From Gemmatimonadota bacterium (GTDB lineage: Bacteria > Gemmatimonadota > Gemmatimonadetes > Gemmatimonadales > Gemmatimonadaceae): a stretch of DNA of 64,000 nt. The stretch spans positions 1 to 64,000 of the forward strand of contig JAQBQB010000006.1 of the NCBI GenBank assembly GCA_028287235.1, given 5' to 3'. Made by a program: the position numbers and the translations under genes. The notes under the pieces were generated by a model. The model was not told the origin of the DNA. It did not search any database and worked only from the letters and a program-made list of their open reading frames with translations. Of the stretch, positions 2,490 through 12,068 are shown piece by piece (position 1 is the first letter of the stretch; each line of letters begins with the position of its first letter).

Positions 2490-3059
2490 TCAGTTTGTGT
2501 TCGCTTTCCTTTCCACCACATCGACGACGAAGCAGCCCCAATCGTCGCCCGCAGTCGCGACCACGAGCCATTGTCCGGATTTCGGAAACGAGACGAGGCT
2601 CGGATAGCCATACATACGTCCCGACGGCCCGGGGCCATGCGCCAATCCTGCAACTGTGAGACGCAGCGAGTCCGCAGGGTGATCGATTCGAGCAGCCCGC
2701 AGGACGAGTGGGAGGCGGCCAGAACTCGGCGCGTGCAGAGGAATCCATAAGAGCTTGTCTTTCTCCCCTGCTTTCATTTCATGCGTGTTGATCAAGCCCC
2801 CGCGCACGATGATGTCCCCCGAACGTAGAGACCCGGTTGCACGCCGATCCACGGTCGTCGAGGCCAGGCACCGCCTGTCACTGATACCAGCGAATTGTGA
2901 AGCGGCAAAGAGGGGCTGGCTCGGGTCCTGAGCCTTGGCGTGCGGGAATCCGATAGCCTCCGATTCCGCTTGCGCGACAGTCACGGGAATGGTCTGCGCC
3001 GCGAGCGTGCAGGCGCCGACGGTCACTGAAATGGCGATGCCCAAGACAAGGTGCCGCAT
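2490..3059 (-). CDS. secreted protein of unknown function
   Basis: A 189-residue protein beginning at an ATG with a strong GGAGG site seven bases upstream. An N-terminal signal peptide (MRHLVLGIAISVTVGACTLAAQ) contains a VGAC segment that could serve as a lipobox, otherwise cleavage after AAQ is likely. The C-terminal half has a beta-sandwich-like pattern, with GYPSLVSFPKSGQWLVVAT followed by a hydrophobic strand (CFVVDVV). This resembles periplasmic domains with the 'FP..G.W.v.a' motif, but no function is known. It is the last gene on the minus strand after the acetyltransferase, 385 bp downstream, so membership of that operon is uncertain. Confidence 0.65.
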   Translation of the reverse strand: MRHLVLGIAISVTVGACTLAAQTIPVTVAQAESEAIGFPHAKAQDPSQPLFAASQFAGISDRRCLASTTVDRRATGSLRSGDIIVRGGLINTHEMKAGEKDKLLWIPLHAPSSGRLPLVLRAARIDHPADSLRLTVAGLAHGPGPSGRMYGYPSLVSFPKSGQWLVVATAGDDWGCFVVDVVERKANTN

Positions 3060-3444: not shown

Positions 3445-4077
3445 CTACGTGGCGCTGCCCACCGAACGTGAAGCGGGTGGCTGTCCGCGACGCGATTCAC
3501 CCATATCGTGTGTTGGGCCGCACTCCAGAGCTGCAACATAGGGATCTGCTGATTCCCGAATTCGGGCGTAGATAACTCGGTCAAACAAAGTCCCATCCTT
3601 ATAACCCGCGCGACGAAGTACGGCTTCGCGCACGAACCCGTTTCGCTCGAGGACGCGCATCGACGGCGTATTCCAGGCGGCTACGGGGGCCGCGACACGA
3701 ACGAGATTCGGCTCCGCGAGGGCCATTTCAACAACCCTCCCGACGGCTTCGGTGGCGATGCCACGCCCTCGGTGAGCTTCGCCGAGCCAGTAACCGATCT
3801 CCGCGAAACAACACTCGATATGCCGACCACGCACGATTGAAAGCATGCCGACTGCTTCACGATCCGCCTCGATCGCGTAGATGCCTTCGGGCGGGGTCTG
3901 ACCCGCCGCCACAGCAAGCAGCTGGTCGGCGTCTGCGTCGGTGAACGGATACGGGAAGTTACCGGACATATTGCGCCAGACCACGCGATCATTGGCATAA
4001 CGCAACAGCGCAGGTTTGTCCGCGATCCGCCATGGCCTCAGCTGGAAGCTGGAGCACTGAATGATCTGAGGAAGCAC
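3445..4077 (-). CDS. GNAT family N-acetyltransferase, RimJ/RimL-like
   Basis: A 210-residue enzyme expected to move an acetyl group from acetyl-CoA to an amine. The RimJ-type start is present (LRPWRIADKPALLRYANDR). So is the acetyl-CoA site: EIGYWLGEAHRGRGIATEAV matches the Q/RGxGxA motif A, followed by NTPSMRVLERNGFVREAVLR. A tail of about 35 residues after the domain is unusual and low in complexity. The chosen GTG start has GGAGG seven bases upstream and sits only 26 bp after the permease stop, so the two are probably co-transcribed. In microviridin operons a GNAT enzyme acetylates the mature peptide's N-terminus. A similar tailoring role here is inference; a stand-alone resistance or RimJ-like function is the alternative. 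Confidence 0.85.
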   Translation of the reverse strand: MLPQIIQCSSFQLRPWRIADKPALLRYANDRVVWRNMSGNFPYPFTDADADQLLAVAAGQTPPEGIYAIEADREAVGMLSIVRGRHIECCFAEIGYWLGEAHRGRGIATEAVGRVVEMALAEPNLVRVAAPVAAWNTPSMRVLERNGFVREAVLRRAGYKDGTLFDRVIYARIRESADPYVAALECGPTHDMGESRRGQPPASRSVGSAT

Positions 4078-4103
4078 CCGACCTCCGGCTTTCCTATTCG
4101 GAG

Positions 4104-6551
4104 CTACCCTTCTCGCAATGCACTGGCCGGAGCGATGCGCCCAATCGCCCGACTCGGCATATAGCTGAATACGACGAGAAGGCCCACGATAGCTGCACTG
4201 ACACCGACGAAGGAGATCGGTCCAGCGGTTGGCACGTACCGCATTTGTGTTCGCAGGGTGGCGAGAATGGCCACAGTCGCGATCCAGCCGACAACTGCGC
4301 CCACTAACCCAAGACGCAGGCTTTCTAGCACGACCAAGGAAATGAGCCGCTCGGTTGTCGCTCCCAATGCAGCACGGGTTGCAAGTTCACGGTGCCGACT
4401 AGCAACGTATGTGCTTGCGATGCCATACGCACCCGCGGCAAGGAGTACGAGCGCTGCCAAAGCGACCGCGATCATCAGATCAGCGTGAAACTTCTCGTCG
4501 GCGCTCAGATTATCTGTGATCGTCTGCAATGCGCTGATCGTGATCGGCAACGTCGGGGCAACGCCATGAAGTGTCTGCGCGAACGCATACTGATCGGCGC
4601 GGGAACCACTCGTCGTAGGCGCGGGCCTCACTCGACCAATGACAGCCAGCCACGATTGAATGGCTTCGTTCGGCGTCTGCCAGAACGGGATGTAGATCGT
4701 CGGTACCGGCTCGGCTCTCAGGTCAGAGGAAACCACGTCGCCGGCAACACCGATAATGCGGCATTGCTTACCGGCCGCGGGCTCGATGTGTTCGCCAATG
4801 GCGTCCCTATTCGGGAAAGCACTCCGCGCCAAACCCCGGCTAACGACGCACACCGGTTCGACGTCGGACGATCGGAAGGGCCGGCCGCTGATCAACGGAA
4901 TTCGTAGCGCCGCAAAATACCCAGCCGACACGGGACGGTATTCGGCGAGTCCTCTTGCCCCGTCGGACGACCCACCAAGCACACGGTACGTGGGACGCAT
5001 CGTCTTTCGAGTAGGCAGGGCGATCGCGACTGCGATGTTTTCAAACCGTGGACCAGTCTGGAGTTCGCTCTCCATAGTACTTGCCAAACGCCTCCACTCG
5101 TCCGCCGATCCTCCACCTTCAGGCAGCGTTAGCTCTGCGACGACCACGGAATTCGGATCGAATCCAAGCGGCACTTTCGAAACATCGCGATACGCGCGGA
5201 ACAACGACAACAAAATGGCCAGGGAGACGACGGCGCACGCGGCTTGGAGCACGACGAGCATGCTTCGATGACGCGACGCGGGTCGAGCACTTGTGGCTCG
5301 ACGACTCGCTGACCCGATTTCGCCGAGAGATTCCTGAGCTAAGACAATCGCTGCTGGAACGAGAGCGGCCGCGACGATAACTACGGGGACGACAGCAACA
5401 AGCGAAAGGACGCCAGCGCTCACGCCCACCGAGCGGAACGGAAGAACGCCAGCCGGGAGCGCCACCTCGAGACAACGCAGCAAGGACGGTGTCGCTATCA
5501 AACCGACGATGGCGCCAGCAGTCGCGAGCACTACGCCATCTAACAGGACTCGCGCGACGGCATGCACACCGCGTTCACCAAGAGCGCGCCGAATGGACAT
5601 CTCGCCTTGCCGAGGGAGCGCACGAGACAGGGCCAGGCCATATGTGTTGGCGCATGAGATAAACAGCGCCAAGAACGCAACCGCAAAGAGCACGTACATC
5701 TCGCCGCGGTAGCGCTGTCGTACTATTTCCTCAAGGCGTGCGATCTGGATCGGGCTCGTGTCATGATCCGTTGGGTCCTCCAAAGCGAGCACTGGCGCGC
5801 TCACCGACCGGATCGCCGACTCAGCCTGTGCTTGGCTTGCGCGCGGATCCACGCGTGCCCAAAGTCTCAGATAAATGCTCTGGGCCCACTTCGACGGAAG
5901 CATTTTCTCGAGCTGATCAAGGGTCGGGTCTGCTCCGAGCGGAATCCAAACGGATGGTGGCGACGGAAGCGGCGGTATGCGCAGTGTTTGCGGCGTTACG
6001 CCGATGACTTGAAAGGCACGACCATTGAGCCAAACAGTTCGTCCGACGACACCGGGGTCTCCGCCAAAGCGACCGCGCCAAAGCTCCTCACTTAGAAGAG
6101 CCACAGCCGCGCCGGCATGACGCGGTTCCTCTGACGCGTCGAAAAGCCGACCAAGGATAGGACGTACACTCAAGACTTGAAACAGCGAGGCGGAGCAAGC
6201 AAGCGTAGTAACACGCTCAGGATCGGTGTCACCAACCCGGCTTTGCAGCGTCATATCCACCGAATTGAGAGCAGCGAGAGAGCGAAGACCGGGAATTCTC
6301 TCCTGAACTGTGTAGAAGAACTTGTATGTAAACGGGCGGTTGCCGAGGAACTTGTTCGACCTCTTCAGCTCGACAATTTCGTCGGCCCGTGCGTAGGCAA
6401 GCGGTCGCAGCATCGTTGTGCGAACGATGCTCAAGGCGACTGCAGCGACGGCGACACCGATGGCAACACTAAGGATGGAGAGAACGGCTGACGCACCGCG
6501 GCGCTTCAACGACCGCCACAAATCTCGAGTGACCAGAAGGCGGAAAATCAT
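4104..6551 (-). CDS. MacB/FtsX-type ABC permease of the ADOP class
   Basis: An 815-residue integral membrane protein with two MacB_PCD-FtsX units in tandem. The first begins with a cytoplasmic helix and a membrane segment (about residues 20-48), a periplasmic domain with the typical GRTVWLNGRAFQVIGVTP strand, and a three-helix FtsX block near residues 285-410. A second unit fills the C-terminal half and ends with 'GRIAPASALREG'. No ATPase domain is present, so an ABC ATPase must come from elsewhere. Unlike the ADOP protein at 8970, it lacks the soluble N-terminal region. It lies downstream of the precursor-like peptide and upstream of the acetyltransferase on the same strand, which makes it the natural export candidate for the locus. 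Confidence 0.85.
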   Translation of the reverse strand: MIFRLLVTRDLWRSLKRRGASAVLSILSVAIGVAVAAVALSIVRTTMLRPLAYARADEIVELKRSNKFLGNRPFTYKFFYTVQERIPGLRSLAALNSVDMTLQSRVGDTDPERVTTLACSASLFQVLSVRPILGRLFDASEEPRHAGAAVALLSEELWRGRFGGDPGVVGRTVWLNGRAFQVIGVTPQTLRIPPLPSPPSVWIPLGADPTLDQLEKMLPSKWAQSIYLRLWARVDPRASQAQAESAIRSVSAPVLALEDPTDHDTSPIQIARLEEIVRQRYRGEMYVLFAVAFLALFISCANTYGLALSRALPRQGEMSIRRALGERGVHAVARVLLDGVVLATAGAIVGLIATPSLLRCLEVALPAGVLPFRSVGVSAGVLSLVAVVPVVIVAAALVPAAIVLAQESLGEIGSASRRATSARPASRHRSMLVVLQAACAVVSLAILLSLFRAYRDVSKVPLGFDPNSVVVAELTLPEGGGSADEWRRLASTMESELQTGPRFENIAVAIALPTRKTMRPTYRVLGGSSDGARGLAEYRPVSAGYFAALRIPLISGRPFRSSDVEPVCVVSRGLARSAFPNRDAIGEHIEPAAGKQCRIIGVAGDVVSSDLRAEPVPTIYIPFWQTPNEAIQSWLAVIGRVRPAPTTSGSRADQYAFAQTLHGVAPTLPITISALQTITDNLSADEKFHADLMIAVALAALVLLAAGAYGIASTYVASRHRELATRAALGATTERLISLVVLESLRLGLVGAVVGWIATVAILATLRTQMRYVPTAGPISFVGVSAAIVGLLVVFSYMPSRAIGRIAPASALREG

Positions 6552-6629
6552 GGCTGACTATTGGACGAATCCAGAGGCACAACCCACCATGTGTCTCGAC
6601 AGGAACTCACGGTATCATCGATGCCGGTT

Positions 6630-6656
6630 CCACTGGGGCGCGAGGCGCCCCAGTGG
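6630..6656. terminator. perfect 12-bp hairpin between precursor gene and permease gene
   Basis: CCACTGGGGCGC (6630-6641) pairs perfectly with GCGCCCCAGTGG (6645-6656) around a GAG loop. There is no T-run on either side, so it may be a partial terminator, an RNA-stability element or an attenuator rather than a full stop. It lies 15 bp after the precursor-like frame. This would let the peptide mRNA be far more abundant than that of the permease, a common design in RiPP operons. Confidence 0.65.
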
Positions 6657-6671
6657 ATACTGCTGTTCGAA

Positions 6672-6836
6672 CTACGCGTCCTCTTCGTCGGTGAGTGAGC
6701 CCGTCGACAACAACGTGCTGCTGGCTGAGGGCTGGCGAACGGCGCGAAGCGCCTCGTCTGTGAGCTCAGTCGCCATGGTGCGCGCGAGGATGCGGACGTT
6801 CTTCGACGCGACCCGGCTCGCTGTTCCGTTGTTCAT
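6672..6836 (-). CDS. graspetide-like RiPP precursor peptide
   Basis: A 54-residue peptide with an excellent ribosome site (GGAGG, five bases before the ATG). Residues 1-35 form a basic, helix-prone leader containing ATELTDEALRAVRQ, similar in style to the LTDEEL leaders of many RiPPs. Residues 36-54 form a contrasting core, PSASSTLLSTGSLTDEEDA, with eight Ser/Thr in the first part and four acidic residues (D50, E51, E52, D53) at the end, and no Lys or Cys. ATP-grasp ligases of the graspetide type join Ser/Thr hydroxyls to Asp/Glu side chains, so the composition suits ester formation; without Lys, amide cross-links are unlikely. It follows the ATP-grasp gene by 180 bp on the same strand. The exact cyclisation pattern cannot be read from sequence. 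Confidence 0.7.
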   Translation of the reverse strand: MNNGTASRVASKNVRILARTMATELTDEALRAVRQPSASSTLLSTGSLTDEEDA

Positions 6837-6863
6837 CTTATCCTCCATGTAGTGGTCTGGGAT

Positions 6864-6977
6864 TCACTGCGGATGAGAATCTGGTGTCGCATCCACGGCT
6901 CGTCTGGGCCGGCCGAGGACGGTACTCCTCCAACCACGGGAGACGCGCCGGCGGCCGTAAGCACCTCCTGTCATCAT
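6864..6977 (-). CDS. possible 37-residue basic peptide between ligase and precursor
   Basis: An ATGATG start follows GGAGAAGG with a four-base gap, a good ribosome site. It opens a 37-codon frame in the gap between the ATP-grasp gene and the precursor. The product is Arg-rich in the middle and ends in DATPDSHPQ. It has no recognisable family, and the low number of codons means it could be chance. It may instead be a leader frame or simply part of an untranslated spacer. It is listed because the gap is otherwise empty and the site is strong. Confidence 0.25.
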   Translation of the reverse strand: MMTGGAYGRRRVSRGWRSTVLGRPRRAVDATPDSHPQ

Positions 6978-7016
6978 GTGACCTTCTCCACCTCGATGCG
7001 TTAGCAGAATCGTCGG

Positions 7017-8147
7017 TCAATCATCGGCGAAGATTCGCAAGCCGCCCCGCTCTGCGACATGATCGCCGGTTAGTGCGTCGATGTCGTCACCTGAATGCGC
7101 CAGGTACTCCGACCACGACACCGCGGGAGCCTCTCGGTCGTAGCAGAACTCGGGATCGCCAGCGATGAGATAGTCACTCGCAATATCCAAGAGTGGCAGG
7201 CTGGCCCGCTCCTCCAGCCATAGGAATTGTCCTTGAGGGTTTGCCTCCAGGAAAACGTGTTCGCCCTGCGGAGTGACGATGAAATCCACAGACGCGGTTG
7301 CCATTCCGGTCGACCGCAGGAAGCGGCGCGTACTCTCGGCAACCGCGTGGGGTAGCGAGTAAGGCTTCATGTCAACGAACCATTGCCCCATACGCCAATC
7401 AATGCGAGCGCGATCGTCGGACTGCGAGTCGATTTGAAGCGCGACTAGGTGATCGCCGAAACACGCTACTCGTACCTCGAACGCCTTCTCCACCAGCGGT
7501 TGTAGGATGGCCGGACAGAGACGCAGCGTATCTTCTGGTTGAAGATCGGCCGTTGAAATGGAACTCGTATACGTCGCGAATCTCCTGCCGTCTGCGGTCT
7601 CCCACGACGCGCGCTCCAAGAGCTTGTACGCCGCAACTCCGCCGCACGCCTCAACAAACGCTCGCATCTCGGCCGGATCATTTGTCACCGTAGTGCGCGG
7701 CACGGCAAGCCCCGCGCGGCGCGCCTCGCGAAGTTGATACACCTTGTGCGTATGCGTGACATGGCGTTGATAATGGCTAACCCAATAGACGGAAGGGCCG
7801 TCGAGGGAAGCAAGAAAATCCCAGAGTAACCGAGTGCAGTGACGCGTTGCAACTTCGCGGTCGCCGAGGTGCATGCTGTCAGGGAGCCATGCATCGTCCA
7901 CTCGTCTCAGCCATATCGTGTCGAACCTGTTGCCGCGTTCGATTTCTTCATTGGACCGACGGAGTACGGTCGCAGTCCTCCCGGTTGTCGCCTCGTTTCC
8001 CTCGTGTAGAGTGATACTCGTCCGCGTCGGCAGGTCCGCGCAAAAGAATTCCTCGCAGATGTGGCCCTTCTTTCTGACTGCAAATGCTGTCGCTCTCGCG
8101 TGGAGGTCCCTCGGATGTGACACGATTAGTATTCGCTTCTGTTTCAT
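7017..8147 (-). CDS. ATP-grasp RiPP maturase, MvdD/MdnC-like
   Basis: A 376-residue ATP-grasp ligase. The N-terminal part (about 1-130) has the RILIVSHPRDLHA strand and the YWVSHYQRH segment of peptide-maturing ATP-grasp enzymes. In the ATP-grasp fold, K175 (AAYKLLER) is a likely nucleotide contact, and ILQPLVEKAFEVRVACFG (residues 214-231) is the hallmark 'Q..v.K..E.RV' block. Further C-terminal, ALQIDSQ and DWR (250-252) follow, then VDFIVTPQGEHVFLEANPQG with D288, E301 and N303 as metal ligands. These blocks match MvdD/MdnC ligases, which activate Asp/Glu side chains with ATP and join them to Ser/Thr (ester) or Lys (amide). A small peptide with a Ser/Thr-acidic core lies downstream. Start chosen for GAGGAAAG upstream. 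Confidence 0.88.
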   Translation of the reverse strand: MKQKRILIVSHPRDLHARATAFAVRKKGHICEEFFCADLPTRTSITLHEGNEATTGRTATVLRRSNEEIERGNRFDTIWLRRVDDAWLPDSMHLGDREVATRHCTRLLWDFLASLDGPSVYWVSHYQRHVTHTHKVYQLREARRAGLAVPRTTVTNDPAEMRAFVEACGGVAAYKLLERASWETADGRRFATYTSSISTADLQPEDTLRLCPAILQPLVEKAFEVRVACFGDHLVALQIDSQSDDRARIDWRMGQWFVDMKPYSLPHAVAESTRRFLRSTGMATASVDFIVTPQGEHVFLEANPQGQFLWLEERASLPLLDIASDYLIAGDPEFCYDREAPAVSWSEYLAHSGDDIDALTGDHVAERGGLRIFADD

Positions 8148-8969: not shown

Positions 8970-11720
8970 CTACTCTAACCGCAGCGCTTCCAACGGCCCG
9001 ACCTTCGCCGCTCGTCTCGCCGGCAAATAGCTCGCGACGACGGCCGTCGTCACCAGCACGACGATCGCGATGCTCAGCGACGGCAAGTCGATCGCTCCGA
9101 CGCCAAAGAGCTGCGCGCGAATCAACCGCGTTGCCGCAATCCCCGCCGGTACGCCGATGACGACTCCCATGATGGCCACGCGCACCGCTTCGCCGAGCAC
9201 CATTCTCGTCACCTCGCCCGGCTCAGCGCCGAGCGCCGCGCGTAGTCCGAACTCGCTGGTGCGCTGGCTGGTCGAATACGCCGTGACCCCATACAGCCCG
9301 AGTGCCGCGAGTATCAACGTGGCGATGCAGAAGAACATCGTCACCTGCACGAGCAGCATGTCCTGCGATACGGTGCCGCGCACGAGATCGTTCACCGGAT
9401 CGACGACGATCGGCAGCGTCGGGTCGACCTCTTCGATCGCATGGCGAATTGGTTCCACCAAACGGGACGGATCTCCACGAACGTGCACCGACAGTTTGGC
9501 TTGCCCCGATTCGCCGGTGGTCGGATCGTTGAACGCGACGTACATCTCGCGACGCGGTCTACCGCGGACGTTTCTGCTCTGAAAGTCCCGGACGACGCCG
9601 ACGATGGTGTACGGAACGCTGCCAAGCGTCGCCGTAGCGCCGAGTGGATCGCGAGCGCCGAAATACCGCTTCGCCATCGTCTCGTTGATCACCGTGCCGA
9701 GCGGTCTGGTCTCGAGATCTTGGCGGTCGATGTCGCGGCCGCGAATCAAGCGCGCGCCGATGGCGTGGAAGAAGTTCGGGCCCACGCGATCGACTGATAC
9801 CCGGCGCTCCGAATCGGCTTGCGGAACGAAGCCCGACACATTGACGTAATAGCCGGACAGGCCACCACTGAACAATCCGTGATCGGCGAACGCGGCCGCG
9901 TCCACGCCAGGCACTCGGCTGACGCGGTCTGCAAGGTCGCGCCGGAACTGCGCCAGGCGCGCTCCGACGTACGGCGACCGCGCCGTCCGCACGCGCACGG
10001 CGACCAGGTGATCGCGATCCACTCCGATATCGCTATGCAGGAGCTGCTGCATGCTGCGGACGAGTAATCCGCCGGCGATGAGCAACAGCATCGCTAAGGC
10101 GATTTGCGCCACGACGAGCGCGCGCCCGAACGGAATACGGCCTCCTCCAACTCGCGCGGCGCCCATCAAGTTGCGTCCCTGCGAGCGCAACGACGTTGCG
10201 AGATCGACCCGCGTCGCGCGGAATGCAGGCAGCAGGCCGAAGAGCAAAACGCACACGAGCGTCAGCGTCGCCGTGAAGGCGAGCACGCGGGCGTCGGGCG
10301 CCGTATCGATGGCGATCGGGCTGGCGGTGTTCGAACCGCTCACGGTCGTGAGCAACACGCGGCTGCCCCACGCCGCCGCGAATAGACCGAGTACGCTCGA
10401 CACGATCGCGAGCAACGCGCCCTCGACGAGCATTTGCTGCATCAACCGTCCGCGGCCCGCGCCGAGCGTCATGCGGACCGTCATCTCACGACTCCGGGCG
10501 ACGGTGCGCGCGAGCATGAGACTCGACACGTTTGCGCAGACGACGAGAATGACCAAGCCGACGGCCGCCATCAGCACCCAGAGCGCCTTTCCGTATTCGG
10601 CGCGCCGTTCGGAGAACCCGCGGGCGCCCGACACGACGTGAATGGGCGTGTCCTCGAGGCCGTCCTCGAACTGCGACAGATCGCGGCCGGAGAGATGTTC
10701 GCGAATCGCATTCGCCTCGATCGCGCTGACCTCCAGACGGGCCTTCTCGAGCGTGACGCCCGGCCTGAGACGCCCCATCATCACGACCCACGACCACGCG
10801 CGGTCGTCCAGCAGATTCATACCCGGCTGAATCACGGGGTCCATCATCATGGGGAGCCAGAAGTCCACCGGCTGGCCGACAACGTCGCCGCCGAACCCCG
10901 GCGGCGTGATGCCGATGATGGTCACCGTGACGTCGTTGACGCGCATGACGCTGCCGATCGCCGCACGCGATCCCGAGAAGCGGCGCTGCCAATAGTCGTA
11001 CGTGAGGACGGCGACGGGATCTTGCCCCGGCGTCTCGTCTTCGGCTGCCGCAAAAGTGCGCCCCGCATACGCCGATACGCCGAGCACGGAAAAGAAATTT
11101 CCGGTGACGAATCGTGCGTGCGGCTGTTCAGCGGTTGCATTGGCGCTCGGGCCGATCTTCACGTCGATCGGTCCGGACCACCCACTCGCGTACATGTCTC
11201 CGAACACCGTGTTCCGCGCACGCACGTCTCGATAGAGCAGGAACGACACGTAGTCGGTGGTCGGGGAGCCGACATTGTTCTCATTCACCGCGGCGGGATC
11301 GCCCACGATCACGAGTTGCTCGGGATGCGGCACCGGAAGCGGTCGCAGCATGAGCGCGTCGACGAGCGTGAAGATCGCCGTATTGGCACCGATGCCGAGT
11401 GCGAGCGTGGCGATGACCGTGACGGTGGAGGCGGGTCGGCTTTTGAGCGACCGGGCCGCATAGCGCAGATCGCGCGCGATCGACTCCAGCCGAGCGGTCC
11501 CGCGCGCGTCGCGGCTCGTCTCTTTCGTCTGCTCAATGCCGCCGAACTCGAGGCGTGCGCGGCGCAGCGCCGCCTCCGGCGACATGCCCTGCCGCTCGTG
11601 CTTCGCAGCCTCGTGCTCGACGTGGAAGCGGAGCTCGTCGTCGAGCTCCTGCTCGACGGAGGCACGTGAGAACAAGGCGCGCAGACGATACCGGATGTCG
11701 CTGAGGGCTCGAGAGAGCAT
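8970..11720 (-). CDS. ADOP family ABC permease with N-terminal soluble region
   Basis: A 916-residue permease. It begins with the conserved ADOP leader (about residues 1-90), including VEQELDDELRFHVEHEAAKH and 'EAALRRARLEFGG', then LRYAARSLKSRPASTVTVI and the first membrane helix (LALGIGANTAIFTLVDALML). Two MacB_PCD periplasmic domains alternate with FtsX helix blocks, ending ARRAAKVGPLEALRLE. No ATPase domain is fused. ADOP proteins are abundant in Acidobacteriota and Gemmatimonadota, usually directly behind a PadR-like regulator, exactly as here with a 15-bp gap. They are thought to act in export or envelope functions, but the substrate is unknown. Confidence 0.92.
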   Translation of the reverse strand: MLSRALSDIRYRLRALFSRASVEQELDDELRFHVEHEAAKHERQGMSPEAALRRARLEFGGIEQTKETSRDARGTARLESIARDLRYAARSLKSRPASTVTVIATLALGIGANTAIFTLVDALMLRPLPVPHPEQLVIVGDPAAVNENNVGSPTTDYVSFLLYRDVRARNTVFGDMYASGWSGPIDVKIGPSANATAEQPHARFVTGNFFSVLGVSAYAGRTFAAAEDETPGQDPVAVLTYDYWQRRFSGSRAAIGSVMRVNDVTVTIIGITPPGFGGDVVGQPVDFWLPMMMDPVIQPGMNLLDDRAWSWVVMMGRLRPGVTLEKARLEVSAIEANAIREHLSGRDLSQFEDGLEDTPIHVVSGARGFSERRAEYGKALWVLMAAVGLVILVVCANVSSLMLARTVARSREMTVRMTLGAGRGRLMQQMLVEGALLAIVSSVLGLFAAAWGSRVLLTTVSGSNTASPIAIDTAPDARVLAFTATLTLVCVLLFGLLPAFRATRVDLATSLRSQGRNLMGAARVGGGRIPFGRALVVAQIALAMLLLIAGGLLVRSMQQLLHSDIGVDRDHLVAVRVRTARSPYVGARLAQFRRDLADRVSRVPGVDAAAFADHGLFSGGLSGYYVNVSGFVPQADSERRVSVDRVGPNFFHAIGARLIRGRDIDRQDLETRPLGTVINETMAKRYFGARDPLGATATLGSVPYTIVGVVRDFQSRNVRGRPRREMYVAFNDPTTGESGQAKLSVHVRGDPSRLVEPIRHAIEEVDPTLPIVVDPVNDLVRGTVSQDMLLVQVTMFFCIATLILAALGLYGVTAYSTSQRTSEFGLRAALGAEPGEVTRMVLGEAVRVAIMGVVIGVPAGIAATRLIRAQLFGVGAIDLPSLSIAIVVLVTTAVVASYLPARRAAKVGPLEALRLE

Positions 11721-11735
11721 GGTGTCCTCCGGTCC

Positions 11736-12068
11736 TTACGACATCCGCAAAACGAGCGCGACCGCCGTGGTCAGGCGCTCCCAATCCTTTGCTTCGGTCT
11801 CGAGGCGCTTGCGGCCGGCGCGCGCGAGCTCGTAGTACTTGGCGCGGCGATTGTTGTCGGACACGCCCCACGAGGCAGTGATCCATCCGCGGCGCTCGAG
11901 CCGATGCAGTGCCGGGTACAGCGAGCCTTGTGGGATCTGCAGCGTTTCGCGCGACACTTGCTGGATGCGCTCGGAGATCCCCCAGCCGTGCATCGGCTCG
12001 AGCGAGAGCGCCTTGAGAATCAGGAGGTCGAGCGTGCCTTGCGGCAGGTCGAGTCGGGCCTCGGTCAC
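11736..12068 (-). CDS. PadR family transcriptional regulator
   Basis: A 110-residue winged-helix protein with the PadR signature: LPQGTLDLLILKALSLEPMH near the N-terminus, then GWGISERIQQ, 'LQIPQGSLYPALHRLERRGW', and the wing with RRAKYYELARAGRKRL. The C-terminal helix that mediates dimerisation is short, as in the ADOP-associated group. It is transcribed with the ADOP permease that starts 15 bp downstream and probably represses its own operon. The ligand is unknown. No operator is clear in the 140 bp upstream. Confidence 0.93.
   Translation of the reverse strand: MTEARLDLPQGTLDLLILKALSLEPMHGWGISERIQQVSRETLQIPQGSLYPALHRLERRGWITASWGVSDNNRRAKYYELARAGRKRLETEAKDWERLTTAVALVLRMS

Follow-up and report, generated by a model that had tools for sequence, protein, structure and literature searches.

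A predicted one-ligase graspetide locus in a Gemmatimonadota genome with a precursor lacking the GG site

Graspetides are well known outside cyanobacteria (PMC8939145, PMC13097080). Graspetide synthetases are described as phosphorylating Asp/Glu under guidance of the leader, with Thr/Ser then attacking to close macrolactones (PMC13097080). For a Legionella pneumophila ligase with two precursors, three dehydrations were obtained in E. coli (PMC9576775). Microviridin loci (mdn/mvd) of cyanobacteria encode two ligases and their products carry a Lys lactam; in the class I clusters there is no protease, the precursors mostly have no GG site and the product is N-acetylated by a GNAT (PMC13039773). 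In the open-access papers covered, nothing was found on graspetides that named Gemmatimonadota.

The DNA analysed here (64,000 nucleotides, hereafter the window) is the first part of a 179-kb contig in a 5.7 Mb genome. A preliminary description had placed a ligase, a small peptide, a permease and a GNAT acetyltransferase in this order on one strand, and all four open reading frames were confirmed on the minus strand (Table 1). Most likely, the system would work like a class I microviridin pathway. It belongs to a separate graspetide clade, that of the RVLAY/RILA leaders.

Table 1. Coordinates of the features of the locus within the window
Feature	Position	Strand	Length or remark
ATP-grasp ligase, graspetide-type macrocyclase	7017-8147	minus	376 aa
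Precursor peptide	6672-6836	minus	54 aa; listed ORF 6672-6848 = 58 aa
Conserved leader segment VRILARTMATELTDEALRAV	6738-6803	minus	common to proteobacterial precursors
Perfect hairpin, 13 bp, 3-nt loop, no T-run	6629-6657	minus	precursor-permease gap
Orphan FtsX/MacB-type permease, divergent ADOP family	4104-6551	minus	815 aa
GNAT acetyltransferase, RimL/RimJ-like, GTG start	3445-4077	minus	210 aa

With the Legionella and other proteobacterial RVLAY/RILA loci (L022, L028-L102), the window shares the ligase clade, the leader motif, the single ligase, the core motif and a small precursor adjoining the ligase. It differs from them in a precursor without GG that is encoded on the downstream side of its ligase, in a ligase only 28-40% identical, and in having no C39-ABC transporter or HlyD adaptor nearby; C39 peptidases are absent from the whole genome. 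L. pneumophila Gra-7 (PMC9576775, there group 8) probably belongs to this same clade. The loci of two Acidobacteriota MAGs (L026 and L027) have the nearest ligases (~40% identity) and a related leader, RILGRRLARELTREEL; the precursor there is upstream, with another, short core, QCWTLTDPPDGPYRDH. In L027 the ORF after the ligase is on the opposite strand, and the short contig holds no permease or GNAT. Ligases found elsewhere in the phylum (L002-L019, with wider loci at L166-L177) are also graspetide-type ATP-grasp enzymes. They fall in other clades, however; C39-ABC-like transporters occur in eight of the 12 wider loci, and no RILA leader was found at any of these loci.

To place the ligase, family profiles, structures and a tree were compared. 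Its NCBIfam matches were TIGR04187 (E 2.8e-55), MvdC (E 1.8e-48) and MvdD (E 1.1e-45), all under the curated equivalog cut-offs, so that it is not MvdC or MvdD proper. The nearest PDB sequences were AMdnB (E 4e-38), MdnB, MdnC and CdnC. For the AlphaFold2 model (pLDDT 89), the best PDB match was MdnC (Z 30.0, 2.5 A over 306 residues). The top nine structures by Z (25.4-30.0) were all graspetide ligases, followed by RimK (21.9) and LysX (20.5), values that indicate a common fold and a preference, not function. Over 23 clade members, 31 positions were invariant; the ligase keeps such positions, among them K135, K175, R226, D288, E301 and N303, and its C-terminal extension of ~45 aa is present in its clade too. 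In a tree of 60 proteins, the ligase was inside a clade of 36 rows (support 100/99) made up of Legionella, other Pseudomonadota, Myxococcota and Acidobacteriota enzymes, with MvdC, MvdD, TgmB and the other phylum ligases outside it. Within this clade it was provisionally placed as the first branch (93/89, not starred), with a long end branch (1.32). Sequence, tree and predicted fold thus identify it as a genuine graspetide synthetase, as the preliminary description had proposed.

The distribution of this enzyme was then surveyed. When 84,980 species genomes were scanned with a profile of three sequences, 460 relatives came up, and the best 80 of these were analysed. They were mostly from Legionellales, with others from other Pseudomonadota, Myxococcota, Chloroflexota and the two Acidobacteriota MAGs, whose ligases were the closest among the best 80 of 460. 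In its own genome the ligase gene was the single match at E <= 0.001, and it was the only one among 98 relatives. Of 395 genomes from the phylum, 13 others had weaker matches, and the 15 ligases from these that were included in the tree lay in other clades; no ligase of this type was found in any other genome of the phylum searched. Viral and genome contigs scanned with patterns from one protein gave no close relatives; it took an alignment query to find relatives. No close homologue of the whole locus was found in the genomes searched.

For the precursor, an ATG (ATG AAC) at 6836 has a Shine-Dalgarno GGAGG just upstream, and this is most likely the start, correcting the listed 58 aa to a peptide of 54 aa, MNNGTASRVASKNVRILARTMATELTDEALRAVRQPSASSTLLSTGSLTDEEDA, with a monoisotopic mass of 5704.875 Da when unmodified. 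The leader covers approximately residues 1-35 and the predicted core begins at about P36. An HMM was built from 37 leaders of other organisms, with the window left out, and run on all stop-to-stop frames of the 64 kb; the precursor was the sole significant match (E 5.8e-8, the next being 1.1). With a second profile of 16 leaders, no site in the whole genome scored above the precursor (26 bits, E 5e-5), the runner-up there having E 0.44; across all 98 relatives it was again the top match, and the next (20.5 bits) was in a different genome. No second precursor was found in the whole genome by the 16-leader profile. The leader RxLAxxLA...L.xxELxxVxGG is common to peptides adjoining Bradyrhizobium and Legionella ligases, and the window leader conforms to the clade motif R[IV][LM]A..[LM]A. 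Such leader peptides were present in 67 of the 80 related loci (best 80 of 460), and the precursor gene was upstream of the ligase in most relatives. As the leader models matched both within the window and across the genome, the ligase and precursor are well supported as a real, intact graspetide pair.

Two variations were seen among the related loci. In L040, L057, L064, L098 and other Legionellales loci, tandem precursors with near-identical leaders and differing cores accompany one ligase, which suggests from the sequences that one enzyme may serve many cores. In L029, L030 and L037 (Nannocystaceae and kin), the same leader is followed by very short Cys-rich cores, TTSCSCGGxDDCDQQQ, encoded downstream of the ligase; with Cys and few Ser/Thr, these are unusual for graspetides.

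The predicted core of the window precursor, PSASSTLLSTGSLTDEEDA, contains Ser/Thr donors and Asp/Glu acceptors and, as had been noted earlier, no Lys. Of 92 related cores, 57% contain the motif [TS]xxx[TS]G..D..[DE], compared with 3% of shuffled ones. The window core has it in the form T-x3-T-G...D..D, which arises in 2.4% of its own shuffles. Lys occurs in about half of the 92 related cores. As the window core has none, a lactam through Lys is not possible, and rings of esters only are a fair prediction from the sequence. In the proposed route, the ATP-grasp ligase would bind the helical leader RILARTMATELTDEALRAV of the precursor and phosphorylate Asp/Glu side chains in the C-terminal core. 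Ser/Thr hydroxyls would then attack the activated Asp/Glu to form ester rings (macrolactones); the likeliest partners, from the motif of the related cores, would be T41 and T45 with D50 and D53.

Where the relatives carry GG, the window precursor reads AVRQPSAS, and no cleavage site was recognisable in it. A search for Peptidase_C39 (PF03412) that was positive in eight of 14 control genomes gave no match in the whole genome. Among the clade loci (best 80 of 460), most have a C39-ABC transporter with an HlyD adaptor, and the precursors usually have GG; these features are common in the clade, not universal, and hence not strictly defining. The loss of the GG site and the absence of C39 agree with each other. 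A GG motif is lacking in about half of the known graspetide precursors (PMC8939145); what is unusual within the clade is therefore not so among graspetides as a whole. Since the precursor has no GG and the genome no C39 peptidase, the leader would be removed by a protease encoded elsewhere in the genome. Both this step and a possible N-acetylation by the GNAT are modelled by analogy on the class I microviridins. Taken together, it is very probable that this is a one-ligase graspetide locus in which the ligase closes the precursor core into ester rings and the leader is cut by a protease encoded elsewhere. Counting against it are the lack of a close homologue of the whole locus in the genomes searched, the placement of the precursor after the ligase and the unrecognisable cleavage site.

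The permease matched TIGR03434 (E 5e-146, 487.8 bits) and did not reach the cut-off of 622.3, indicating a divergent relative. The four lowest-scoring full-length ADOPs of the genome, the window permease included, did not form a common subfamily (23-25% identity), and no recognisable RiPP genes were seen around them by eye. The GNAT matched Acetyltransf_3 (E 8e-27). It begins 26 bp from the permease gene, with GGAGG preceding its GTG start; from this gap and ribosome-binding sequence, the two are probably co-translated. The ligase, permease and GNAT genes have a G+C of 0.59-0.61 and a GC3 of 0.62-0.65, compared with 0.66 and 0.81 for the next gene, and with this low G+C in common they may have arrived together.

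Upstream of the ligase, a PadR and ADOP pair (8970-12068) is ~80% conserved in four of five congeners, and the ADOP is 80% identical to a gene on a Gemmatirosa kalamazoonensis plasmid, which makes kinship with the Gemmatimonadaceae likely. The conservation stops precisely at the stop codon of this ADOP, beside the ligase locus, from which it follows that the graspetide locus occupies a lineage-specific site. Horizontal arrival of the locus is likely on this sequence evidence. Confined to one lineage, the locus could be decaying or silent, though every frame is intact.

Two further identities were considered for the locus itself. A RimK/LysX-type enzyme beside a chance ORF would agree with the common ATP-grasp fold, and the RimK and LysX structures do align at Z 20-22. 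The match to the RimK family TIGR00768 was, however, only E 0.007 (15.8 bits against a cut-off of 143.4), the tree puts the ligase within the graspetide ligases and the leader homology of the peptide is significant, leaving this reading improbable in the extreme; a RimK/LysX assignment was ruled out by the RimK score and the tree position. The preliminary description had itself named two findings that would count against it, a ligase among RimK or lysine-biosynthesis enzymes and a small peptide missing from all homologous loci, and neither was observed. It had also called the locus microviridin-like, and a genuine microviridin locus after the loss of one ligase would account for a ligase, precursor, GNAT and transporter that match the mdn/mvd list of functions. 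The enzyme class, the fold, the GNAT and the GG-less precursor are indeed shared with microviridins, the last two with the class I clusters. The ligase nevertheless lies in another branch of the tree than MvdC/MvdD, the leader is of the RILA/RVLAY type and has no PFFARFL-type motif, the Lys-free core cannot form the microviridin lactam, and GNAT and permease are not conserved with this ligase type. This derivation is thus highly improbable, and microviridin membership itself was ruled out by the tree, the leader and the single ligase.

The remaining readings both accept the ligase-precursor pair and differ over the permease and GNAT only. In one, all four genes form a single unit of the class I microviridin kind: the precursor has no GG, a soluble protease would cut off the leader, the GNAT would N-acetylate the peptide and the orphan FtsX permease would export it in place of the C39 transporter. 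This is consistent with the common direction of the four genes, the short gap between the permease and GNAT genes and the low G+C that these two have in common with the ligase gene; an ADOP starting <=700 bp downstream on the same strand would occur by chance in ~0.4% of cases, and the class I microviridins offer a precedent in mostly lacking GG and a cluster protease while using GNAT N-acetylation. Against it, no relative of the GNAT was found beside the ligases in either the best 80 of 460 clade loci or the 12 phylum loci, and no real relative of the permease either; the stray matches were one weak MacB-like protein in L034 and one partial ADOP in L171, both away from the ligase and the latter by >5 kb. 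The clade relatives mostly keep C39-ABC and HlyD instead. Conservation of the four genes, which the preliminary description had put forward as a check, was therefore not seen, and the comparison of sequences does not support the four-gene microviridin parallel. Moreover, the permease has neither an ATPase nor an HlyD-type adaptor nearby at the locus, a second ADOP, conserved in congeners, lies on the other side of the ligase, and the GNAT family was found in 19 of 59 relatives searched, the ligase being confined, among these, to the window's genome. We regard the single-unit reading as possible but rather unlikely.

The alternative, which we consider fairly probable, is that the graspetide pair stands by chance beside an unrelated permease-GNAT operon and that other host systems export and protect the peptide. 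In addition to the lack of conservation with clade ligases and the widespread GNAT family, it is favoured by the ~64 full-length ADOPs of the genome, one of them directly across the ligase, and by a strong hairpin between precursor and permease. The region 6560-6690 folds with a z-score of -3.95, and none of 200 shuffles was equally stable. This hairpin resembles the partial terminators that are frequent after RiPP precursor genes. Coincidence fits less well with the shared orientation and low G+C of all three larger genes, or with a permease that stands apart from all remaining ADOPs in the sampled phylum (34% at best over 395 genomes) and so is not a typical host copy. No ADOP-GNAT pair was found in relatives within the short flanks examined. 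With ~64 ADOPs in the genome and the GNAT family common in the order without the ligase, the exporter and acetylation roles are conjecture. The earlier proposal of the permease as exporter was accordingly not upheld, and a family-specific ADOP exporter found no support in the best 80 of 460 and 12 phylum loci. That a graspetide lineage abandoned cut-and-export by GG and C39, and that an orphan FtsX permease now exports the peptide and the GNAT caps it, is a doubtful proposition. If true, the permease-GNAT route would be a new maturation and export arrangement for the ligase clade and the first pathway role for an ADOP permease; as an exporter, the permease would also assign a function to the very large group of orphan permeases it belongs to.

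With the ligase-precursor pair, the RVLAY/RILA-leader graspetide clade now reaches into a phylum sample in which no other genome searched had it. Its distinctive feature, the loss of GG in the precursor paired with the absence of C39 from the genome, raises the question of how the leader is removed and the peptide exported in such lineages. With a 54-aa precursor and a single ligase, the system is directly testable in E. coli.

A gene at 2490-3059 (minus), which follows the GNAT in the same orientation, encodes a small, secreted-looking protein of 189 aa that had no family match in the family-profile search. Positions 1-2235 of the window hold an endolysin-like Amidase_2 gene (888-1448) with small adjacent ORFs. 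This cassette has further copies in the genome: C1:498904-500465, which runs to the contig end, C31:116561-117029 (95%) and C9:248489-250675. The window's contig itself begins inside one. The cassette is a repeated element, possibly derived from a prophage, that breaks the assembly.
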